11,475 nucleotides of DNA from contig JAKQBN010000003.1 of NCBI GenBank assembly GCA_029559475.1, positions 1-11,475 on the forward strand, given 5' to 3'. The translations under genes were made by a program, and so were the position numbers. This DNA comes from a bacterium. GTDB taxonomy: Bacteria > UBA4055. Every line of letters starts with the position of its first letter. Position 1 is the first letter of the stretch. A model generated the notes under the pieces. It worked only from the letters and a program-made list of their open reading frames with translations, did not search any database and was not told where the DNA came from. Shown in pieces: positions 1 through 11,475 of this stretch.

Positions 1-1962
1 GATCCCTTCAACTACACTAATCTTCTTACTACCGAATTCTGGAACAGGATCACCGAGATAACCGATCTCAATAACGAAATATACTACGGAACTACTGTGA
101 CTGTCGAACCTGACACATCAGAGATCGTTATTAAATATGCCAAAGAGTATTTTGCGGATCTGAGATCGTCTTTAGGATCTTCCGCGCAACCTGTACCAAG
201 ATTCAACGACGTTTACAACAGCCCTTATGACACTCCTGTTGTATTTGACGAATTCGAAGCCTACTGTACTCCGAGACATCTCGGTTCGAATACCGACGAG
301 TCAATTCTCGGATGGACAACCGGTCATTCGCCTTCAGATAATCCGTCCGACTATGTTGAATTCATAGGATCTTATACTGTTTATAGAGCTCCTGTTGCAA
401 TGTATCAGGGGGTTCCGAACATCAGCGAGATCACTCACGACGGAGGCATCTATTCAACATGGAAAGATAACAACAGGAACGGAACATACGATGCTTCCAA
501 CGAAATATATGACGCCGGCGAAGATTATGTTGATTATAACTATAATGACACATGGAATAAAAATACCGGATTTTTAAGACCGGGAGCATATCTTGACGGA
601 ATACAGTACAGCGACTTCAACAACTCCGTTATGAAATTCAAAGGAAGTTACACTAATCAGATAAACAGATTCCATATGATCAAAACGGGATTCGAGTTCG
701 TAATGAACGACCTTGATTATTACAAGATCACTAATCCTTATTACTATTATGACACGGATTCTTACGACGTAATTGAAGGCGATCCGTACCCGACAAGAGG
801 GGAGGAAAAAACTCAGTATAAATACGAACCGAAAGAATTCTCGTGCTTCCTGCAGGATAAAATGGAGTTCGAAGACCTTGTTGTCAATGCCGGAGTAAGG
901 ATGGACATGAGGATCCTTGATGATAAATCTGTTGATGAATACGAAAAGAAATATGATGAAGGTGAATTCGGATACGAAGAGGCTATAAACAAATACACAA
1001 CAGCCGTCAGCCCGAGGTTCGGTATATCTCATTCGATCTCTGAAACGTCAAAACTTTTCTTCTCTTACGGACATACATATCAGCTGCCTAATTATACTCT
1101 CGTTTACGACCCGAATACAAAATCAGGAAGAAATCCGCTTTTCGGAAATATGAACCTTGATTATGAAAGGAACGTTTCGTATGAGCTTGGTGTAGTAAAT
1201 GAAGTAGGCGAATACATGATAGACGTAACAGGATATTTCAAAGATATCTACGATATGATCAATACTAAAACATACGAATACGGTGTTACCAACGCTTCGA
1301 TCTATTACAACTCTGACTACGGTAAATCAAGAGGTGTTGAGATCGCTATCGACAAGTCCTTAAGCAGCCACTATATGTGGGGAGTTTCCTACGACCTGTC
1401 TTACGCTTACGGAAAATCATCCAGCCAGGTGTCAAACCTCGAGGACGATGTTTACGAAGTAAAAGAGTTCCCTCTTAACTGGGATGAAAGACATTCTCTG
1501 TCAACTTACTTCACTTTAGTATGGGGAAGAGGCGAGACGCTTTACGGAGTACCTTACACGGATGACTGGACTTTGAGTTTCAACACTGACTTCGGAAGCG
1601 GCAAGCCGTTCACTCCTTCAAAAGAGTATTATAACAACAAAGTAGCTACAGAAGACATAGAGACAAATTCAGAAAGGCTTCCGTGGACATCGACAACCGA
1701 CATGAAACTTTCAAAATCGTTCGCTTTCATGGGTGAGAACGATAAATCATACGGAAAACTTAAATTGGATTTCGACGTGTTCAATCTTTTCAACAAAGTT
1801 AACGTGCTCTCTGTATATTCAGATACCGGAAGCTGGTGGAAAAGAAGCGACGAGTATTATGAGCAGTCTGAAGAACTGTCGAACCTGATAGATGTTTACA
1901 AGAATCCTGAAAATATCGACGAAAGAAGGTATTACAGATTCTCTGTAAGCTACATGTGGTAA
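1..1962 (+). CDS. TonB-dependent outer-membrane receptor, C-terminal part (5' end outside window)
   Basis: The frame is open from the first base, so the gene starts upstream; 653 codons are present. Receptors of this class form a 22-strand outer-membrane barrel that imports ligands using TonB energy. Seen here: many alternating aromatic/polar strands; the typical mid-barrel signature SPRFGIS at fragment residue 337, followed by FSYGHTYQLPNY and then GNMNLDYERNVSYELGV; the late motif FDVFNLFNKVNV from residue 591; and a final strand ending in an aromatic residue (SVSYMW), as expected for outer-membrane insertion. The plug domain and any TonB box would lie upstream. One extracellular loop carries an acidic, Ca-site-like stretch, D156-x-N-x-NG-x-x-D164, followed by more Asp/Asn/Tyr repeats. 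It is first in a compact run; the next start codon lies 35 bases on with no terminator between. The ligand cannot be deduced. The family call is secure; the exact subfamily is not. Confidence 0.95.
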   Translation, partial: DPFNYTNLLTTEFWNRITEITDLNNEIYYGTTVTVEPDTSEIVIKYAKEYFADLRSSLGSSAQPVPRFNDVYNSPYDTPVVFDEFEAYCTPRHLGSNTDESILGWTTGHSPSDNPSDYVEFIGSYTVYRAPVAMYQGVPNISEITHDGGIYSTWKDNNRNGTYDASNEIYDAGEDYVDYNYNDTWNKNTGFLRPGAYLDGIQYSDFNNSVMKFKGSYTNQINRFHMIKTGFEFVMNDLDYYKITNPYYYYDTDSYDVIEGDPYPTRGEEKTQYKYEPKEFSCFLQDKMEFEDLVVNAGVRMDMRILDDKSVDEYEKKYDEGEFGYEEAINKYTTAVSPRFGISHSISETSKLFFSYGHTYQLPNYTLVYDPNTKSGRNPLFGNMNLDYERNVSYELGVVNEVGEYMIDVTGYFKDIYDMINTKTYEYGVTNASIYYNSDYGKSRGVEIAIDKSLSSHYMWGVSYDLSYAYGKSSSQVSNLEDDVYEVKEFPLNWDERHSLSTYFTLVWGRGETLYGVPYTDDWTLSFNTDFGSGKPFTPSKEYYNNKVATEDIETNSERLPWTSTTDMKLSKSFAFMGENDKSYGKLKLDFDVFNLFNKVNVLSVYSDTGSWWKRSDEYYEQSEELSNLIDVYKNPENIDERRYYRFSVSYMW

Positions 1963-1984
1963 TAATATAATATATTAATGTAAT

Positions 1985-1990
1985 AGGAGA
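1985..1990 (+). promoter_or_regulatory. Ribosome binding site that fixes the start of the 1998-5267 gene
   Basis: AGGAGA lies 7 bases before the ATG at 1998. An in-frame TTG at 1995 directly precedes that ATG, but it would leave only 4 bases to the binding site, so the ATG is preferred. Confidence 0.75.
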
Positions 1991-1997
1991 AAAATTG

Positions 1998-4900
1998 ATG
2001 AAAGTCTTAAAAACGCTAACCATATTGTTGCTTGTGGCGTTCGCTTTCTCGGCAATGGCAAGGACCGCGCCGGGAAAAAACGTTCCGGGCGATAAATCGG
2101 TTACAGATTCCAAGGCTGTCAAACCTGTTCAGGAAAACCGTGTTCACAGGGCAGGCCTTTTCTGGCTGAACGTAACCAACAACGGTTATTTCGGAAACCC
2201 TGACAATTTGAATGACGGCTGTACTGGAAAACAGGCCGTGTCGGGAGAATTGCCGGGCGGAACGGGAACGGACTTCCTTTTTGTAGGATCGCTTCTCTTC
2301 GGAGGGTATCTGAACTCGGGGATAGATTCTGTTCAGGCATCTCATCCTCATATTTTCGAGGGACCGCTCGTAAGTACATCTTATGAAGGATGGACAGGAG
2401 AGGCGGGACCGGACGAGATGGCAAGAGAGTGCTGGCCGATCAGTTTTGATGAAGATCCTAACGGAACAAAACTCGGTCACATCAAAGAAACATCTAACGT
2501 TGAAGGCAGAATAAGCTGTCTTTTCGAAGACGTTTACGATCCTTTCGCAACGGCTGAAGAGCAGTTTAACCTGATGTATACTGATAAATTCGTTCAGAAG
2601 ACGCCTTATACAGGTATGGATGATTTTGACGAAAGGGATCATATACCTCTGGGAATAGAAATAAGGCAGAAAAGCTATGCATGGTCTTACGATTACGCAC
2701 AGAAATTCGTGATCATTGACTATACTCTTTATAACAAAAATACAGATATGAAAGATATCTACGATTTCTTTATGGGAGTATATCTTGACTGCGATATCGG
2801 TATGACCTCCGGAGGCTGGACTTACAACCATGCTGACGATCTGGGCGGATTTATCCAGAAGTGGGACAATTACATCGATCCCGCGACCGGACAGTTAAAG
2901 ACCGTGGATCTGAACCTAGCATGGGCCGCTGACAATGACGGAAGGAACTATACGGGTACGAATTATTATTCTGCATCCGGAGAGCCCGGCGCGGGAAAAC
3001 CTCTTGACGGAGCTACTTCCATCGCAACTATCCGTGTTTTGAGGAACCCTAATCCGAACCTGAGATACGCTTTTAATATGTATGTAGCTCATTCCGATGA
3101 TGAAGCTATCGACTGGGGTCCGAGATGGAAAACAGGTCTTCACGCTGACTGGCAATACGATCTGACTCCTGCTCAAAAAGGTTATGATGATAATAACCAT
3201 GACAATTTGAATGTAAACGGGAACGACGGATCGTTGCCGTTATACGGCGGAAGAACTGAAGGAAGGCCCTGCGGAGATAAAGGGCGTTATATGGTTTTAT
3301 CCAACGATGAGTTCGACTACGAACAGTATAAATTAAGAGATCTTTACCTGGGTTCATTAACAGATCCTCCCGGTACCGAACCTCAGTATGCTCAGGCTGC
3401 AAAATGGCAGAAATGGACAACATCTGCTGATATCGGACAGCCCGGATTCGGAGAAATCGCTGACGGAACGATAAAGGAACTGAATGATCTTGCGAATGGT
3501 GCTGACGTTAAATATCTGCTTTCGTTCGGACCTTTGGGAGTTGAAACAACGGCTAACGTTGCAACAGACACGAATAACGACGGAACTACCGATAATTTTA
3601 TAGCAAATAAAAAAGTATGGAAATTCCAGTACGGAGATTCATTAAAGCTGACTCTGGCATTTATCGTTAATGAAAATTTCCATACATCGCTCGATCAGGA
3701 TCCTAATTATGCTGATGACGGCATAGTCGATCCGGAAGACGGGCTTAATACCGAGCTTTACAACAAAGGCTGGTACGACGCTCTTTACAACGTTGTCTGG
3801 GCTGAAAGAGTTTACGATATCCCGATGACGGACACACCTGTTAAAAAATTCGGTAAAGAGATCGGAGACGGCTGGTACGGCGAGGACGTCGGAAAAGACG
3901 CAATATTCGGCGATCTGAGGAACGACCCTTACTGCTGGTGGCTGAATACCGAATATTCAGGACCGGATGAAGGTGAGGGTGATTTTGAAGTTACCACATT
4001 CGATACTACGATAGTCGATATTGACGGAAATACCGCGGCAACCGAAGATCTCATTCTTCCGTTCGGCAGAAAAACAGCCAGCATGGACGGTAACTACGGA
4101 ATAACTGGAGATGATCTTAACGGCGACAGGGACGGTTTCGGATACATGGTTAAATATGATAAAGAAGGCGGATTGTATCCTATCGGCACATGGGTAAGAT
4201 ACGGATTTCACAACGGAAAACTTGATACAGGAGACGGTGTTCCTGACTTTACCGGACCGCCGCCGCCGCCGTCACCAAAGATCAATATTTCTTATGACAA
4301 CAATAATGTAGTTGTCGAGTGGCAGTCCCACGAATTTTTCAAAAAGGACGACGGATTCGAAGCTTATTCAGGACCTGAGAATTTCTATGATCCTTTTACA
4401 AGGACAAAGGATTTTGAAGGTTATCAGGTTCAGTTATCACCTAACCAGAACTCTCAGAACTATGTCGAAGTATTCTCAGTTGACGAAGTAAACTACATTT
4501 ATGAAAATGTAAGCGAAACCGGCGACTATCTGGATATTCCTGTTGATCAGCAGAGATATAATACTCTGGTTGCAAACGATTCAATAGTGATAACCGCTGA
4601 AGGAAAGATCTGGCGCTTAAAAGAGTTCGGAGACAACAGAGATATTCTTGCCTCGCATTCGAAAGACGGAGTTTATACCTACACTGCAGAACCTGCCACC
4701 AGAACAATAACCGTAGCAGCAGGAGTTCAGGAAACTGTAGATTATTACAAATACAAATTTACTCTTCTTAACAAACTTTACGCAAAAGAGAATTACATAG
4801 CTGTTACAGCTTCTGACTGCGGAGATCCCGAAACCGGAACGCCAGAACTTAAATCTAACCCCGCGATAAACGGAAGTTCTGTAATACCTACAAAGATCTC

Positions 4901-5267
4901 CGGCACAAAAGATGTCGTAGTTGTTCCTAACCCGTACAGAGGCGATGCCGACTATGAAACAATGGGCTGGGAAAACGTAGATCAGGCTGACACTTGGGAA
5001 GAGCAGGACAGAAAGATAGTTTTCATGAACGTTCCTTTAAGATCGGTCGTCAGAATATACACTCTCGCAGGTGACCTTGTAAAAACCATAGGCCATAACG
5101 GCAATTCAAGAGTAACCGAGAGATATCAGTACGGAGAATACGGAGTCGCCTGGGATCTTATCAACGATAATAATCAGGCCGTTTCATCAGGACTGTATCT
5201 CTTCAGCGTTCAGGACGTTGATGATGACAGCTACGAGCAGATCGGTAAATTTGTGATCATAAAATAA
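1998..5267 (+). CDS. Large secreted multidomain protein with Fn3-like and FlgD-like C-terminal domains (uncharacterised family)
   Basis: The predicted protein has 1089 residues. A signal peptide (residues 1-21, SAMA before R22) sends it through Sec. The N-terminal half has hallmarks I recognise from large uncharacterised proteins of FCB and candidate-phylum bacteria: an opening with NNGYFGN, a LLFGGYL segment, and the strongly conserved core LGIEIRQKSYAWSYDYAQKF at residues 218-237, leading into IIDYTLYN. A Ca-loop-like D524-x-N-x-DG-x-x-D532 sits in the middle. A proline linker (P754-P758) leads into an Fn3-like region ending near AVTASDCGDPETG. The C-terminus (about 972-1089) begins VVVVPNPYRG and ends GLYLFSVQDV...GKFVIIK, a FlgD-like/T9SS type A-like fold. 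This suggests export to the surface, but it is less canonical than the domain of the gene at 7499. It lies 12 bases before the lipoprotein gene, so co-transcription is likely. Biochemical function is unknown; a structural or adhesive role is possible but unproven. Confidence 0.92.
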   Translation: MKVLKTLTILLLVAFAFSAMARTAPGKNVPGDKSVTDSKAVKPVQENRVHRAGLFWLNVTNNGYFGNPDNLNDGCTGKQAVSGELPGGTGTDFLFVGSLLFGGYLNSGIDSVQASHPHIFEGPLVSTSYEGWTGEAGPDEMARECWPISFDEDPNGTKLGHIKETSNVEGRISCLFEDVYDPFATAEEQFNLMYTDKFVQKTPYTGMDDFDERDHIPLGIEIRQKSYAWSYDYAQKFVIIDYTLYNKNTDMKDIYDFFMGVYLDCDIGMTSGGWTYNHADDLGGFIQKWDNYIDPATGQLKTVDLNLAWAADNDGRNYTGTNYYSASGEPGAGKPLDGATSIATIRVLRNPNPNLRYAFNMYVAHSDDEAIDWGPRWKTGLHADWQYDLTPAQKGYDDNNHDNLNVNGNDGSLPLYGGRTEGRPCGDKGRYMVLSNDEFDYEQYKLRDLYLGSLTDPPGTEPQYAQAAKWQKWTTSADIGQPGFGEIADGTIKELNDLANGADVKYLLSFGPLGVETTANVATDTNNDGTTDNFIANKKVWKFQYGDSLKLTLAFIVNENFHTSLDQDPNYADDGIVDPEDGLNTELYNKGWYDALYNVVWAERVYDIPMTDTPVKKFGKEIGDGWYGEDVGKDAIFGDLRNDPYCWWLNTEYSGPDEGEGDFEVTTFDTTIVDIDGNTAATEDLILPFGRKTASMDGNYGITGDDLNGDRDGFGYMVKYDKEGGLYPIGTWVRYGFHNGKLDTGDGVPDFTGPPPPPSPKINISYDNNNVVVEWQSHEFFKKDDGFEAYSGPENFYDPFTRTKDFEGYQVQLSPNQNSQNYVEVFSVDEVNYIYENVSETGDYLDIPVDQQRYNTLVANDSIVITAEGKIWRLKEFGDNRDILASHSKDGVYTYTAEPATRTITVAAGVQETVDYYKYKFTLLNKLYAKENYIAVTASDCGDPETGTPELKSNPAINGSSVIPTKISGTKDVVVVPNPYRGDADYETMGWENVDQADTWEEQDRKIVFMNVPLRSVVRIYTLAGDLVKTIGHNGNSRVTERYQYGEYGVAWDLINDNNQAVSSGLYLFSVQDVDDDSYEQIGKFVIIK

Positions 5268-5279
5268 AGGAGTAAGGAA

Positions 5280-7481
5280 ATGAAAAGAGTATTAGTATTA
5301 ATTGCGGCCGCTATCGTTTCGTTACAGTTTTTTTCCTGCTCTACCGATTATGACGGTTCAAAACCTGATAATAAGGCACCGATCATAAACGTTTATGATA
5401 CTTCAGATATCACAAGCAGTAAAAAGACAAAGATACAATGGTACGGCAATGACGTTGACGGATCAAAAATGACATATTATTACGCCGTTACAACAGATAC
5501 TACAGTAAATATAGACAACGTGCTGAGCAGAATGCCGCTTGACGGCCAGACCGTCGAAGGCAGAAAATACTGGACAGCTACGGATAAAACGTTCGCATAT
5601 ATTTCTATGCCTTATGCGCCGTTCCCTTCCGAAACCACTCAGATCTTCTGGATAGACACTCTTTATAACGAGGGCGGACAGACAGCCGCATTCAAAGCAG
5701 CTTTCTCAAAATTCTTTGTTATGGGAAAAGACGAGGGCGGTAAAACAACGGATATTACAGAAAAAATGTTTAAAAGAACGAACAGAAAACCAAAATATCC
5801 GATGGTATTTTCAAGCAAATTATCATGCAACGGCTACGACCAGAACTGGATGCTCGTGACAAGCGATTCCGCTCAGATGGTACTTAAGCAGAAAACCGAA
5901 TTCTGGCAGCCTTTTGATTTTAAATGGATGGGAGAGGATCCTGACGGTACTGATGTTGACCTCGAATTCAGATGGGAGCTTCACGAAAGAAAATTCAGAT
6001 TTACAAGAGATGACGGAGATACTGTCGACGAGATCGAGGCAAAGAATGACAGTGTCCTTGTTAAATCTTCCGCAGGATGGAGCGTAACGAACCTGTCGGC
6101 CAGTTTCGATAATGAGATATTCGATCATAACCCTCAGGGAAAGTATGCTTTCAAGGTCTTTGTAAGAGATGATGCATTCGAAGAATCGGAACTTCACAGC
6201 ACAATCTATTTTGAAGTGTTCGCGCCAAAGCTTGATAAAGGGATTCTTATTATAAATGACACAAATCCTACATTAGCAACGAACACGAATATGAAAGTCC
6301 GCCAGGGTAATCCCGACGGAACTTTAGTAACTGATTTTTACAAATCGCTTCTTTCTGCAGCGGGATACAGCGAAAATGATCCTGATCCTTTAAAAAAATA
6401 CAGCATGGAGACTTTCTCTGTTGCGACTGAGATAATCGGCTACGATACGACTTTCGCGATCGTCGGAGCGGATACTACAATAACAGCTATAGATACAATA
6501 AGGGTAAGCTCATATTATCCCAACATAAGAAAACTTTCCGAGTACAGGCTTGTTATAATAGCTTCGGACGACAGAAGCAACGAAAAGGGCGTGGATTATA
6601 CCGGAACGACAAATGTGGGTTATATCAGCTATCTGTCTCAGTATCTTGACGTAGGCGGAAAAGCCTTCATAGTAGGAAACTCAACGCTTATGGCAAAATA
6701 TCCGTACACTCTTGAAGTAGAATCATATAAGGCTCCGAGAAGGCAGGTGTTCGAACCTTATGCTCAGGATGTTGTCGAAATAGCTGACGCAACGCTTGAT
6801 TTCTTCAAGGATTATTTCGGTATATATTCAATGAGTTTCGCCGAAACGAAAACGTGGTTCTGCCCGGATATATGGAATATCGGAGTTCAGGGTCAGAATG
6901 TTACGCCAAAAGATTATTATCTGCAGGACAATTATGATTTTGTTGGTGTCACGCCTTACGATCATATTTCTGATTCAAAGATAGCTGCATTAAAGGTTGA
7001 CAGCGCGAAAGTCAACGACTGCTGGTTCAACTACCCGGCAAAAGTCGGACCCTTTAATGTTTTAATGACGTTCCAGGCGAAAGAAAACGGTACTGTAATG
7101 ACAGGTATTCCCGTTATCGAGGCATTTAAGGGCGAGACCGTATATAAATACAAATCGATCTATGATCTGCCGAGAGTTGAAGGAGATAACGATACCGTTT
7201 ACGATACCGACGACAACGGTACGGTCAATCATTCGCTTAAGTACATCGATCCTGTTACCACAGACGGCGATAAATCAGGTTACATTTTAAGAAAATCCGG
7301 TTCTGTTGCTACAAGATACATCTCCGAAGGTGATGTTTTCAGAACAGCATTCTTCACCATACCGCTGTATTTCCTGGACGACAACAGAGATTTAAACGGC
7401 GATTCGGAAGGCGATGTGACAGGAATGTTCAAAGCTATGATCGACTGGTTTGACCTTGAAGTTAATCCGTTAAATAAATAA
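5280..7481 (+). CDS. Outer-envelope lipoprotein with two Ig/Fn3-like modules and a Rossmann-like (GATase-like) region
   Basis: The predicted protein has 733 residues. The start is fixed by AAAGGAG 7 bases upstream of the ATG. A hydrophobic leader ends in LQFFSC, making C20 the likely lipidated residue; the lipobox is slightly atypical (Phe at -2). Two modules share the motif W-x-G-x-D-x-DG, at W54-G61 and W216-G223, each followed by beta-rich sequence, consistent with tandem Ig/Fn3-like domains. From about 318 the sequence LDKGILIINDTNP begins an alpha/beta region with a second hydrophobic strand (YRLVIIASDD) and then YLDVGGKAFIVGNS at 455-468. This pattern resembles glutamine-amidotransferase-like/ThuA-like Rossmann folds, but I see no clear catalytic Cys. 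There is no sorting domain; it ends MIDWFDLEVNPLNK. It is not a recognisable SusD, although it follows a TonB receptor in the same run and could be a surface partner of that receptor. That role is inference. Confidence 0.92.
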   Translation: MKRVLVLIAAAIVSLQFFSCSTDYDGSKPDNKAPIINVYDTSDITSSKKTKIQWYGNDVDGSKMTYYYAVTTDTTVNIDNVLSRMPLDGQTVEGRKYWTATDKTFAYISMPYAPFPSETTQIFWIDTLYNEGGQTAAFKAAFSKFFVMGKDEGGKTTDITEKMFKRTNRKPKYPMVFSSKLSCNGYDQNWMLVTSDSAQMVLKQKTEFWQPFDFKWMGEDPDGTDVDLEFRWELHERKFRFTRDDGDTVDEIEAKNDSVLVKSSAGWSVTNLSASFDNEIFDHNPQGKYAFKVFVRDDAFEESELHSTIYFEVFAPKLDKGILIINDTNPTLATNTNMKVRQGNPDGTLVTDFYKSLLSAAGYSENDPDPLKKYSMETFSVATEIIGYDTTFAIVGADTTITAIDTIRVSSYYPNIRKLSEYRLVIIASDDRSNEKGVDYTGTTNVGYISYLSQYLDVGGKAFIVGNSTLMAKYPYTLEVESYKAPRRQVFEPYAQDVVEIADATLDFFKDYFGIYSMSFAETKTWFCPDIWNIGVQGQNVTPKDYYLQDNYDFVGVTPYDHISDSKIAALKVDSAKVNDCWFNYPAKVGPFNVLMTFQAKENGTVMTGIPVIEAFKGETVYKYKSIYDLPRVEGDNDTVYDTDDNGTVNHSLKYIDPVTTDGDKSGYILRKSGSVATRYISEGDVFRTAFFTIPLYFLDDNRDLNGDSEGDVTGMFKAMIDWFDLEVNPLNK

Positions 7482-7498
7482 AAAAAGGAGGGTTTTGG

Positions 7499-9664
7499 AT
7501 GAAGAAACTATTAACTCTGGCTTTAATGACAGCGCTTGCATTTTCCGTTTTCGCGGATATGAGCGCTGCAAGAAAAAGCGCGATCATCCCTGCAGCGAAA
7601 AAAGTAAATCCGGACAACATACAATCCGGTTCTGCAAAAGGGCCTTATACAGGTCTGATGAGCTCTGAATTCGACAGAGCAGGACACGGCAACGGCTGGA
7701 TCTACGGCTATAACAGAAAAGTTCAGTGGAATCAGAAGCTTGCTGACAATACTGATATGCCGATGGTAGGATCCCTTTACAGACAGCTTAATCTTGCTCT
7801 TTACGGTACGATAGGCGGAATGATCGGAGATTACAGCGCATCACCGCTAAGCAAAAAAACAGAAACTTTATATGCTACATCGCAGTTCTGGGGAGCTAAA
7901 CCCGGCGGAAGATATCCGAACGCCAACGAATTCATTAATGGTTATTTCTTCGGATGTTTCAATGATTTCGATACTGTAACTGACACAAACTCATGGGGTA
8001 TGTTCACAGTAGCCGACGCTACTTGGGGATATGACTGGTCATCGTGGACCGTTCCAAAAAGAACTGAAGCAACAGAGGGCGGCGCATCAGTTCCCGGAGC
8101 TTGGACTGAAACAGGAGATGTGGTTTACGATCCGGCGACTGAATATTACTACTGGACACAATCATGGGGTGAAGGCGGACTTTCGGGCGGTATTGACGGC
8201 GCTATTAATTCGGTAGTTGTTGGAAGAACTCTTACTCCTGCCGACAGAGACAGCTGGGTATGGTCTGATTATAAAGACCTCAGATTTGACGGATCAGACG
8301 ATACAGCAGGCATCACAGCTATTAATGAGTTCCATGTTGCTTACTGTAAGGATACTTTCGGAAACGGAACCGGATATGGAATCGCTATGGCAGTCTGCAA
8401 CGACGTTGAGGATTCCATAATGGTAAATGACTCTACTGTTGTTGTGCAGAATCCTAAACTGAGCTGGATGTACACTACTAACTGGGGCGGAGACGACTCA
8501 AGCGGAGACTGGAAACCAAATTGGAGAACTCCCGGACCTGACAAACTTTACAGACTTGAAATGAAAGACGTTTTCGATTGGTATGGCGAGAATTTAACAT
8601 CAAGAGATTCGATCGGATGGGACGAAGTGAACAACGTCATCATTTGGGATACAACAGAAGTTGTCATATTGAATGATCCTTTCATTACATGGAACATATC
8701 CAACGTCGCAACTGAGAACAATAATGTACATGTATTATTCAAAGCATATCCCGGAAATGCGGAAGGTATGTATCTAGTAACTGATGCCGGCTTTAGAGCG
8801 GGTTATTATGCTTTGAAAGGAACTATCACTTCAGGCGGAGTTGTATGGAACGGCAAAGCGCGTTTCGTAGGATCGATCGTAGATGCTGATCAGGGATGGG
8901 ATGTCATTGAGAATGTTGCTTCTAACAGAAATAACCTGTGTATGGGATATGCAGGCGACGACTTCCAGGGAAGAGAAGTCGTTTACGCAGCTTGGCTTGA
9001 CAAACCTTTGAGCAGAGCTCAGGCAAATCCTTACGGCCAGGAATCGATCTGGCTTGACGACGCGTTCTTTACATCATCTACCGACGGCGGAATGAACTGG
9101 GACAAATTCAGCGTTGTTGAATTTGAAACCGGCGATGAAAATTACCCTATCTGGACGCAGACATATACTTACAACATTACCAAAACAAGCGCTGTTCACG
9201 AAATGGGATTCTGCCTTGCCAACCACGGAAAAGTAGATCCTGTAACCTGCGCTATAGAAACATACGGAGCTCACGAGCAGGCTGATAGAAACTATCCGAC
9301 TGAACCTGTTACCGATCTGAACGATTTCCAGCAGACCCTTCACGTCTGGAAAATCACCGGCAGTCCGAATGGAATAGAAGCTGAACAGACAACTTTAGCT
9401 AAGGACTTTGTTCTTTATCAGAACTATCCTAACCCGTTCAACCCGACAACTGAGATAAAATTCAATCTTCAGAAAGATTCACAGGTAAAACTTTCTGTTT
9501 ATAACACGAAAGGCGAGCTTGTATCAAATCTGAAAAATGAAAAAATGGCAAAAGGCAGCCATTCGGTGAACTTTGATGCAGAATCATTGAACTCGGGAGT
9601 ATATTTCTACAAACTGAACGTAAACGGAATGACAGAAACTAAAAAAATGGTACTGACGAAGTAG
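7499..9664 (+). CDS. Secreted protein with T9SS type A C-terminal sorting domain; possible beta-propeller body
   Basis: The predicted protein has 721 residues. A very strong ribosome site (AAGGAGG, 7485-7491) precedes the ATG by 7 bases. The signal peptide is residues 1-19 (SVFA before D20). The C-terminal 85-90 residues are a classic T9SS type A sorting domain: LYQNYPNPFNPTTEIKF from residue 639, VKLSVYNTKGELV, SGVYFYKL, and the end KKMVLTK. In known systems this domain guides passage through the outer membrane and is then usually cleaved, with the cargo released or anchored. The body is rich in Trp, Tyr and Gly and has one exact Asp-box, S527-x-D-x-G-x-x-W534 (STDGGMNW), the blade motif of sialidase and BNR-type beta-propellers. 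One box does not prove an enzyme, and no sialidase Arg triad is evident. It is last in the run and is followed 7 bases after its stop by a strong terminator. Substrate and function are unknown. Confidence 0.94.
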   Translation: MKKLLTLALMTALAFSVFADMSAARKSAIIPAAKKVNPDNIQSGSAKGPYTGLMSSEFDRAGHGNGWIYGYNRKVQWNQKLADNTDMPMVGSLYRQLNLALYGTIGGMIGDYSASPLSKKTETLYATSQFWGAKPGGRYPNANEFINGYFFGCFNDFDTVTDTNSWGMFTVADATWGYDWSSWTVPKRTEATEGGASVPGAWTETGDVVYDPATEYYYWTQSWGEGGLSGGIDGAINSVVVGRTLTPADRDSWVWSDYKDLRFDGSDDTAGITAINEFHVAYCKDTFGNGTGYGIAMAVCNDVEDSIMVNDSTVVVQNPKLSWMYTTNWGGDDSSGDWKPNWRTPGPDKLYRLEMKDVFDWYGENLTSRDSIGWDEVNNVIIWDTTEVVILNDPFITWNISNVATENNNVHVLFKAYPGNAEGMYLVTDAGFRAGYYALKGTITSGGVVWNGKARFVGSIVDADQGWDVIENVASNRNNLCMGYAGDDFQGREVVYAAWLDKPLSRAQANPYGQESIWLDDAFFTSSTDGGMNWDKFSVVEFETGDENYPIWTQTYTYNITKTSAVHEMGFCLANHGKVDPVTCAIETYGAHEQADRNYPTEPVTDLNDFQQTLHVWKITGSPNGIEAEQTTLAKDFVLYQNYPNPFNPTTEIKFNLQKDSQVKLSVYNTKGELVSNLKNEKMAKGSHSVNFDAESLNSGVYFYKLNVNGMTETKKMVLTK

Positions 9665-9670
9665 TTATTA

Positions 9671-9711
9671 TTCGGGGCATCCGGCATAGACCGGCTGCCC
9701 CGGATTTTTTT
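9671..9711 (+). terminator. Intrinsic terminator closing the four-gene run
   Basis: A GC-rich hairpin pairs 9673-9684 with 9691-9702 around a 6-base loop, with one mismatch (9680 against 9695), and is followed by seven T. It starts 7 bases after the stop of the T9SS cargo gene and separates that run from the PorV-like gene. Confidence 0.9.
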
Positions 9712-10824: not shown

Positions 10825-10850
10825 GGGGGATTTATATCCCCCTTTTTTTT
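10825..10850 (+). terminator. Intrinsic terminator after the PorV/PorQ-like gene
   Basis: The six-base arms GGGGGA and TCCCCC (10825-10830 and 10837-10842) flank the loop TTTATA and are followed by eight T. It lies 23 bases after the stop codon. Confidence 0.92.
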
Positions 10851-10884: not shown

Positions 10885-11475
10885 ATGAATAATATATTAA
10901 CAGTTCTGATCTTTGTTCTCACGGCAATACCGCTTTTTGCAGATCATTTTACAGCTGACAGCATAAAAAAATATTCAGGCAGGAACAGCACAGGTCTCAT
11001 TGAACTTTATTCACAGGCAGAGAACGGAGAATACATTAAGTTCATTCTGGATAATTCCTCGCCTAACGATCTGGCTGTTCTTACGCCCGAAATGATAAAG
11101 TCGAATATCGAACTTGCTATGAAGACTAAGGAATTCAAATATTCATCGCTGTACGGAGAGGACATATTTAAGCATTTCGTTCTTCCGGGCAGGATCACAC
11201 AGGAACCTTATGAGAACTGGCGGGAAAAGTTCTATAAAGAGATATCTCCGCTTGTAAAAGATATTTCCGACATCGAAGAAGCCGCGATAATAGTAAATCT
11301 CTGGGCGCAGGAGATGATGACATACAAGCCGACGCACGGAAAGGATCAGGGACCCCTTACGACGATAAAGAGAGGCTACGGAAGATGCGAGGAGATGATG
11401 ATCATCTACATGGCTGCCGCGCGAAGCGTGGGGATCCCGGTTAGATCGGCCGGAACTTCACTCTGGAACTTCACC
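10885..11475 (+). CDS. Exported transglutaminase-like protein, N-terminal part (3' end outside window)
   Basis: The frame is open from the ATG at 10885 to the window edge (197 codons). GAGGG (10874-10878) lies 6 bases before the ATG. The signal peptide is residues 1-19 (IPLFA before D20). The next stretch matches the usual N-terminal part of bacterial secreted transglutaminase-like proteins: FILDNSSPNDLAVLTPEMI and then VLPGRITQEPYENWREKFY (99-117). The papain-like core follows: PLTTIKRGYGRCEEMMIIYM with the predicted nucleophile C168, then AAARSVGIPVRSAGTSLW. In this family the catalytic His and Asp come shortly after, in a segment like NHAWVE, which falls just outside the window, so activity cannot be judged. 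Members may act as proteases, crosslinkers or peptide-modifying enzymes, or may be inactive. It starts 34 bases past a terminator, so it probably has its own promoter, though none is clear. Confidence 0.9.
   Translation, partial: MNNILTVLIFVLTAIPLFADHFTADSIKKYSGRNSTGLIELYSQAENGEYIKFILDNSSPNDLAVLTPEMIKSNIELAMKTKEFKYSSLYGEDIFKHFVLPGRITQEPYENWREKFYKEISPLVKDISDIEEAAIIVNLWAQEMMTYKPTHGKDQGPLTTIKRGYGRCEEMMIIYMAAARSVGIPVRSAGTSLWNFT

Follow-up and report, generated by a model that had tools for sequence, protein, structure and literature searches.

The stretch of DNA analysed here (the window) is one whole contig, C58, of 11,475 bases, from an assembly of 2.28 Mb in 83 contigs. It encodes, in this order and all on the forward strand, the C-terminal part of a TonB-dependent receptor (A), a large protein predicted to be exported (B), a lipoprotein (C), a type IX secretion system (T9SS) cargo protein (D), a PorV/PorQ-family outer-membrane barrel (E) and the start of a transglutaminase-like protein (F). 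Feature coordinates are collected in Table 1. The gaps between A, B, C and D measure 35, 12 and 17 bases, the first of these presuming that B starts at its ATG and not at the in-frame TTG just before it, and GGAG-type sequences resembling ribosome sites are found upstream of B, C and D. The hairpin in the interval between D and E folds far more stably than its shuffled counterparts (shuffle mean −12.1 kcal/mol; z −5.68), and it was not picked up as a terminator by a pattern scan. The short gaps, ribosome sites and terminator given in a preliminary description of this DNA are all borne out by the open reading frame coordinates and the folding comparison. Predicted promoters number 26 in the window and 23.2 in shuffles, so that there is no excess, and the prediction speaks neither for nor against internal promoters.

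Table 1 Features of the window, with coordinates on the forward strand.
Feature	Coordinates	Strand	Remarks
A, TonB-dependent receptor, C-terminal 653 aa	1..1962	+	PF00593 E 1.5e-27; open at 5′ end
B, 1090-aa exported protein (predicted)	1998..5267	+	start TTG 1995 or ATG 1998; FlgD_ig/PorU/PorZ-like C-terminal domain
C-terminal domain of B, proposed contact to barrel E	4917..5267	+	VVVVPNPYR...GKFVIIK; weak NCBIfam matches, own clade
C, 733-aa lipoprotein	5280..7481	+	LQFFSC lipobox, Cys20 invariant
D, 721-aa T9SS type A cargo	7499..9664	+	PF18962 E 1.3e-12, TIGR04183 E 2.2e-11
Intrinsic terminator, D/E interval	9670-9711 (approx.)	+	hairpin −25.2 kcal/mol, then U-run
E, PorV/PorQ-family outer-membrane barrel, 337 aa	9788..10801	+	NF033709 E 1.9e-52
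Second terminator-like hairpin, 3′ of E	10825-10850	+	
F, start of transglutaminase-like protein	10885-11475	+	full relatives ~860-900 aa

As the window is an entire contig, with a contig end at base 1, the receptor gene is truncated at its 5′ end. Full-length relatives of A are about 1250 residues long and comprise CarboxypepD_reg, Plug and barrel domains. Their likeness to SusC/RagA is confined to the N-terminal part, where TIGR04056 gives 65 bits against a cut-off of 368, and the RagA match covers the same region.

Profile searches returned no family match for B apart from a weak one to its FlgD_ig-type C-terminal domain (CTD). When this domain was searched in isolation against NCBIfam, the CTD ends of the PorU (9e-4) and PorZ (7e-3) models matched weakly, and divergent relatives of B also weakly match the C-terminal ends of both models. 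The PorZ and PorU models align to B by their C-terminal ends only, scoring about 9-27 bits where the cut-offs are 260 and 420, so that neither gives a full-length equivalog match, and the PorZ and PorU bodies are absent from B. A specifically PorU/PorZ-like character of the B CTD was considered and is weakened by a profile comparison, which puts the domain no nearer to PorU than to ordinary cargo. In a tree of CTDs, those of the B proteins form a separate clade, apart from ordinary cargo CTDs, which is partly by construction since the B set was selected with a B CTD model. The tree shows no particular tie of this clade to PorU or PorZ. The B of the window lies below every sorting-domain cut-off, and a divergent protein in the B position (L180) exceeds that of TIGR04183. 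B is an expanded family, with eight matching places in the genome of the window. One contig of this genome (G000:C10:1-11818, L121) carries a tandem series of three adjacent B paralogues of full length plus part of a fourth, with no TonB receptor in view.

C matched no family in the profile searches, SusD included, and SusD-like_3 (PF14322), the one SusD model searched, gave no match in any of 17 genomes, whereas the Bacteroides control was positive. The lipoprotein had already been described as not recognisably a SusD, and these searches agree. For D, the sorting domain scores well over cut-off with both PF18962 (48.2 bits, cut-off 27) and TIGR04183 (43.6 bits, cut-off 23), and the body of the protein is conserved in 11 aligned relatives. 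The initial assignment of sorting-type C-termini to both B and D thus holds for D, while the CTD of B groups apart from those of cargo. Structure predictions from two-row alignments were unusable for B (mean pLDDT 26.0) and for C (28.7), and profile searches of solved structures yielded no credible hit to B, C or D.

The barrel protein E reaches 178.9 bits with the family model NF033709 (cut-off 90) and remains below the PorV and PorQ equivalog cut-offs. It is not the best PorV-family match of its genome, as the family model gives a higher score to a copy on contig C47. That top-scoring gene is followed by one resembling a T9SS-dependent family of M6-like inactivated metalloproteases (L170:2552-6528, G000:C47). 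F comes after D or E in most relatives. The preliminary description had closed the set at base 9711, and this boundary is wrong. In related contigs the C and E genes overlap, with 4 bases shared at the end of C in G000:C57 and G011:C157 and an overlap also in G008:C90, leaving no room for a terminator, and E is therefore part of the set past the terminator seen in the window.

Conservation was surveyed in 13 genomes of the window's family, in which several contigs end inside the set. We see that B directly follows A in 10 of the 12 A places, with C intervening in the other two, and that C lies next to B in 16 of 20 C places. E lies no more than 1.6 kb from D in 9 of 11 places, and from C in 3 of 11. 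A scan for B over named genomes led to a single record, MAG UBP11_UBA4055, where UBP11 is presumably Delongbacteria; a contig of this MAG (G005:C55, L124) carries A-B-C-D-E-F in identical order. D is the loosest member of the set, and D-family genes are found also away from A and B. There are 40 B places, some of them fragments, compared to 12 A places, and both solitary and tandem B copies occur. In one family genome (G004) an E-like gene is present, and A, B and C were not found by these queries. Overall, the proposal that A to D form a joint unit stands with respect to gene order, which is kept within the family and recurs outside it, and needs amending in that it omitted E and included D on a par with the others.

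Beyond the family, A, B and E make up the most closely knit unit, joined in some cases by C; this unit is found in several lineages, and E is the most consistent partner. Genomes G015, G021 and G037 have A-B-E, with C following in the first two, and G019 has A, a β-helix lipoprotein gene, B, E and, further on, C. The lipoprotein gene of G019 lies at L103:5938-7881, between receptor and B. The order in G042 is A, exbB, exbD, tonB, B. The placing of exbB-exbD-tonB between an A-type receptor and B (L106:7481-15125) suggests a dedicated energising set in this genome. In several outside genomes the neighbouring genes of A-B-E either overlap or lie up to a few tens of bases apart, and T9SS cargo is often encoded downstream of the trios. 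In the open-licence literature, preprints aside, we found no description of the A-B-E trio.

Two genomes, G057 and G013, are rich in trios, with at least 12 in G057. Across 12 trios of G057 the A, B and E distances are correlated with one another (Mantel r 0.82-0.93, p about 0.0002-0.0004), a pattern that would also be expected from duplication of whole operons. This genome has 18 PorV-family genes of about 145 bits or more, and 15 of these sit beside A or B. Counting only receptors fetched for matching A alone, to limit bias, we see B or E adjoining 8 of 12 strong A-type receptors compared to none of 8 weaker TonB receptors (p 0.005). When G015, G019, G021 and G042 were searched genome-wide for A, the top-ranking receptor in each was the one lying near B, and the runner-up was many orders of magnitude weaker.

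The presence of B was also compared with T9SS gene content. SprA is over cut-off in all 13 family genomes, that of the window included, and the PorU sortase in 8 of the 13. Beyond the family, an SprA match was obtained in each of the 10 genomes chosen for B (8 over cut-off), a set in which the B matches of G018 and G041 cover mainly the CTD, compared to 1 of 8 genomes without B, that one marginal. G030 gave 14 PorV-family matches and none to SprA, and such barrels may function there without an SprA translocon.

Barrel shuttles draw T9SS substrates from the SprA translocon. Type A CTDs pass to PorV (PMC12618676, PMC9143113). Type B CTDs instead pass to cognate PorP/SprF barrels, which are usually encoded adjacent and on which the substrates apparently remain anchored; it is for this type that a shuttle adjoining its CTD substrate has been shown experimentally (PMC12618676, PMC9143113). 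The CTDs of PorU and PorZ are uncleaved and are kept on PorV and PorQ, respectively, and cognate PorV-like barrels have been suggested to shield CTDs from cleavage (PMC10202324). By analogy with these systems, and drawing on gene linkage, co-divergence and the families to which the proteins belong, we propose that the locus may encode an outer-membrane complex powered by TonB, in which a protein delivered by the T9SS is the surface component, in place of a SusD lipoprotein. We give this reading slightly less than an even chance of being correct. B would be exported by Sec and would cross the SprA translocon via its CTD. The PorV-family barrel E would be its cognate shuttle, taking up B and holding it at the surface, much as PorQ holds PorZ and PorV holds PorU. 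There, B would partner the TonB receptor A, its most likely task being to capture the ligand within an import complex, and C and D may be accessory surface or secreted factors.

The data here fit uptake, adhesion and surface assembly alike; uptake is the leading candidate role, but is unproven, and several observations weigh against the proposed complex. The excess of B over A within the family indicates that B has roles with no A nearby. Family members have E adjoining C or D rather than B, and a terminator separates E in the window. The profile comparison also fails to bring the B CTD closer to PorU than to ordinary cargo. Operon duplication offers another source for the correlated distances, and no ligand, enzyme or structure backs uptake. 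We also considered that B might be a structural surface protein, such as a surface layer component or adhesin, with A and E serving its display and A acting as a scaffold or signalling receptor. The eight B places of the window's genome and the three adjacent full copies on C10 would suit such a protein, and those type B T9SS substrates that have their own shuttles are adhesins, either known or predicted (PMC12618676). However, distant lineages keep a receptor with plug and barrel beside B, the two co-diverge, and the G042 locus includes exbB-exbD-tonB, so we regard a purely structural B as rather unlikely.

A further reading would make A, B and E a specialised attachment branch of the T9SS, resembling PorU/PorZ and PorV/PorQ; this branch would process or anchor D and similar cargo, and A would be an accessory barrel in it. 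The matches of the B CTD to the ends of the PorZ and PorU models, the membership of E in the PorV family and the frequent presence of T9SS cargo after the trio all point this way, but those PorU/PorZ matches are weak and limited to the CTD, and the genome has both PorU and a better-scoring PorV-family gene elsewhere. Moreover, many paralogous trios per genome are a better fit to substrate-specific modules than to one core machine, and we consider an attachment branch improbable. That A to D are mere neighbours among general surface proteins, with no joint function, is already unlikely given the linkage data and seems to us very improbable, for although D is often apart from A and B in the family and many B copies stand alone, the order is kept over many genomes and the trio co-diverges.

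Returning to the proposed TonB-powered complex, we tentatively extend it to the possibility, which we would place somewhat short of probable, that in T9SS lineages without SusD, T9SS-delivered proteins on dedicated PorV-family barrels replace SusD on TonB receptors. If true, this would be another outer-membrane uptake architecture, one that occurs in several lineages and in many copies in some genomes. The trio ties TonB-dependent import to type IX secretion, two outer-membrane systems that are usually treated apart, and offers a testable idea of how uncultured SusD-less T9SS lineages assemble receptor complexes and why they have so many PorV-family barrels. It would also provide natural substrate-shuttle pairs from beyond the well-studied model species, useful for tests of CTD recognition.

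Among known systems, the SusC/SusD (RagA/RagB) loci of Bacteroidota are alike in having a TonB receptor, for which full-length relatives of A show a CarboxypepD_reg-type N-terminal extension, a co-encoded surface partner and many paralogous loci per genome. The early comparison with a SusCD-type locus is apt for the layout, relatives of A having both CarboxypepD_reg and a SusC/RagA-like N-terminus. The difference is that here no SusD was found with the one model searched, and the receptor's neighbour carries a T9SS-type CTD and is followed by a PorV-family barrel gene. The locus may work like SusCD, but by the tests run it is not a member of SusCD. Type B CTD proteins with their cognate PorP/SprF barrels (SprB-SprF, Fjoh_3952-Fjoh_3951 and PG1035-PorP) share the side-by-side arrangement of a substrate and a dedicated barrel, whereas here the barrel belongs to the PorV family, the CTD looks more like those of type A, PorU and PorZ, and the first gene of the set encodes a TonB receptor. 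PorZ-PorQ and PorU-PorV also place a CTD protein on a PorV/PorQ-type barrel, as proposed for B and E, and show weak CTD similarity to B; unlike them, B has no PorZ or PorU body, is multicopy and often lies beside a TonB receptor. In short, the locus is best described as a TonB receptor module linked to the T9SS, a new arrangement of known parts in which what resembles a substrate-plus-shuttle pair is joined to a TonB receptor.
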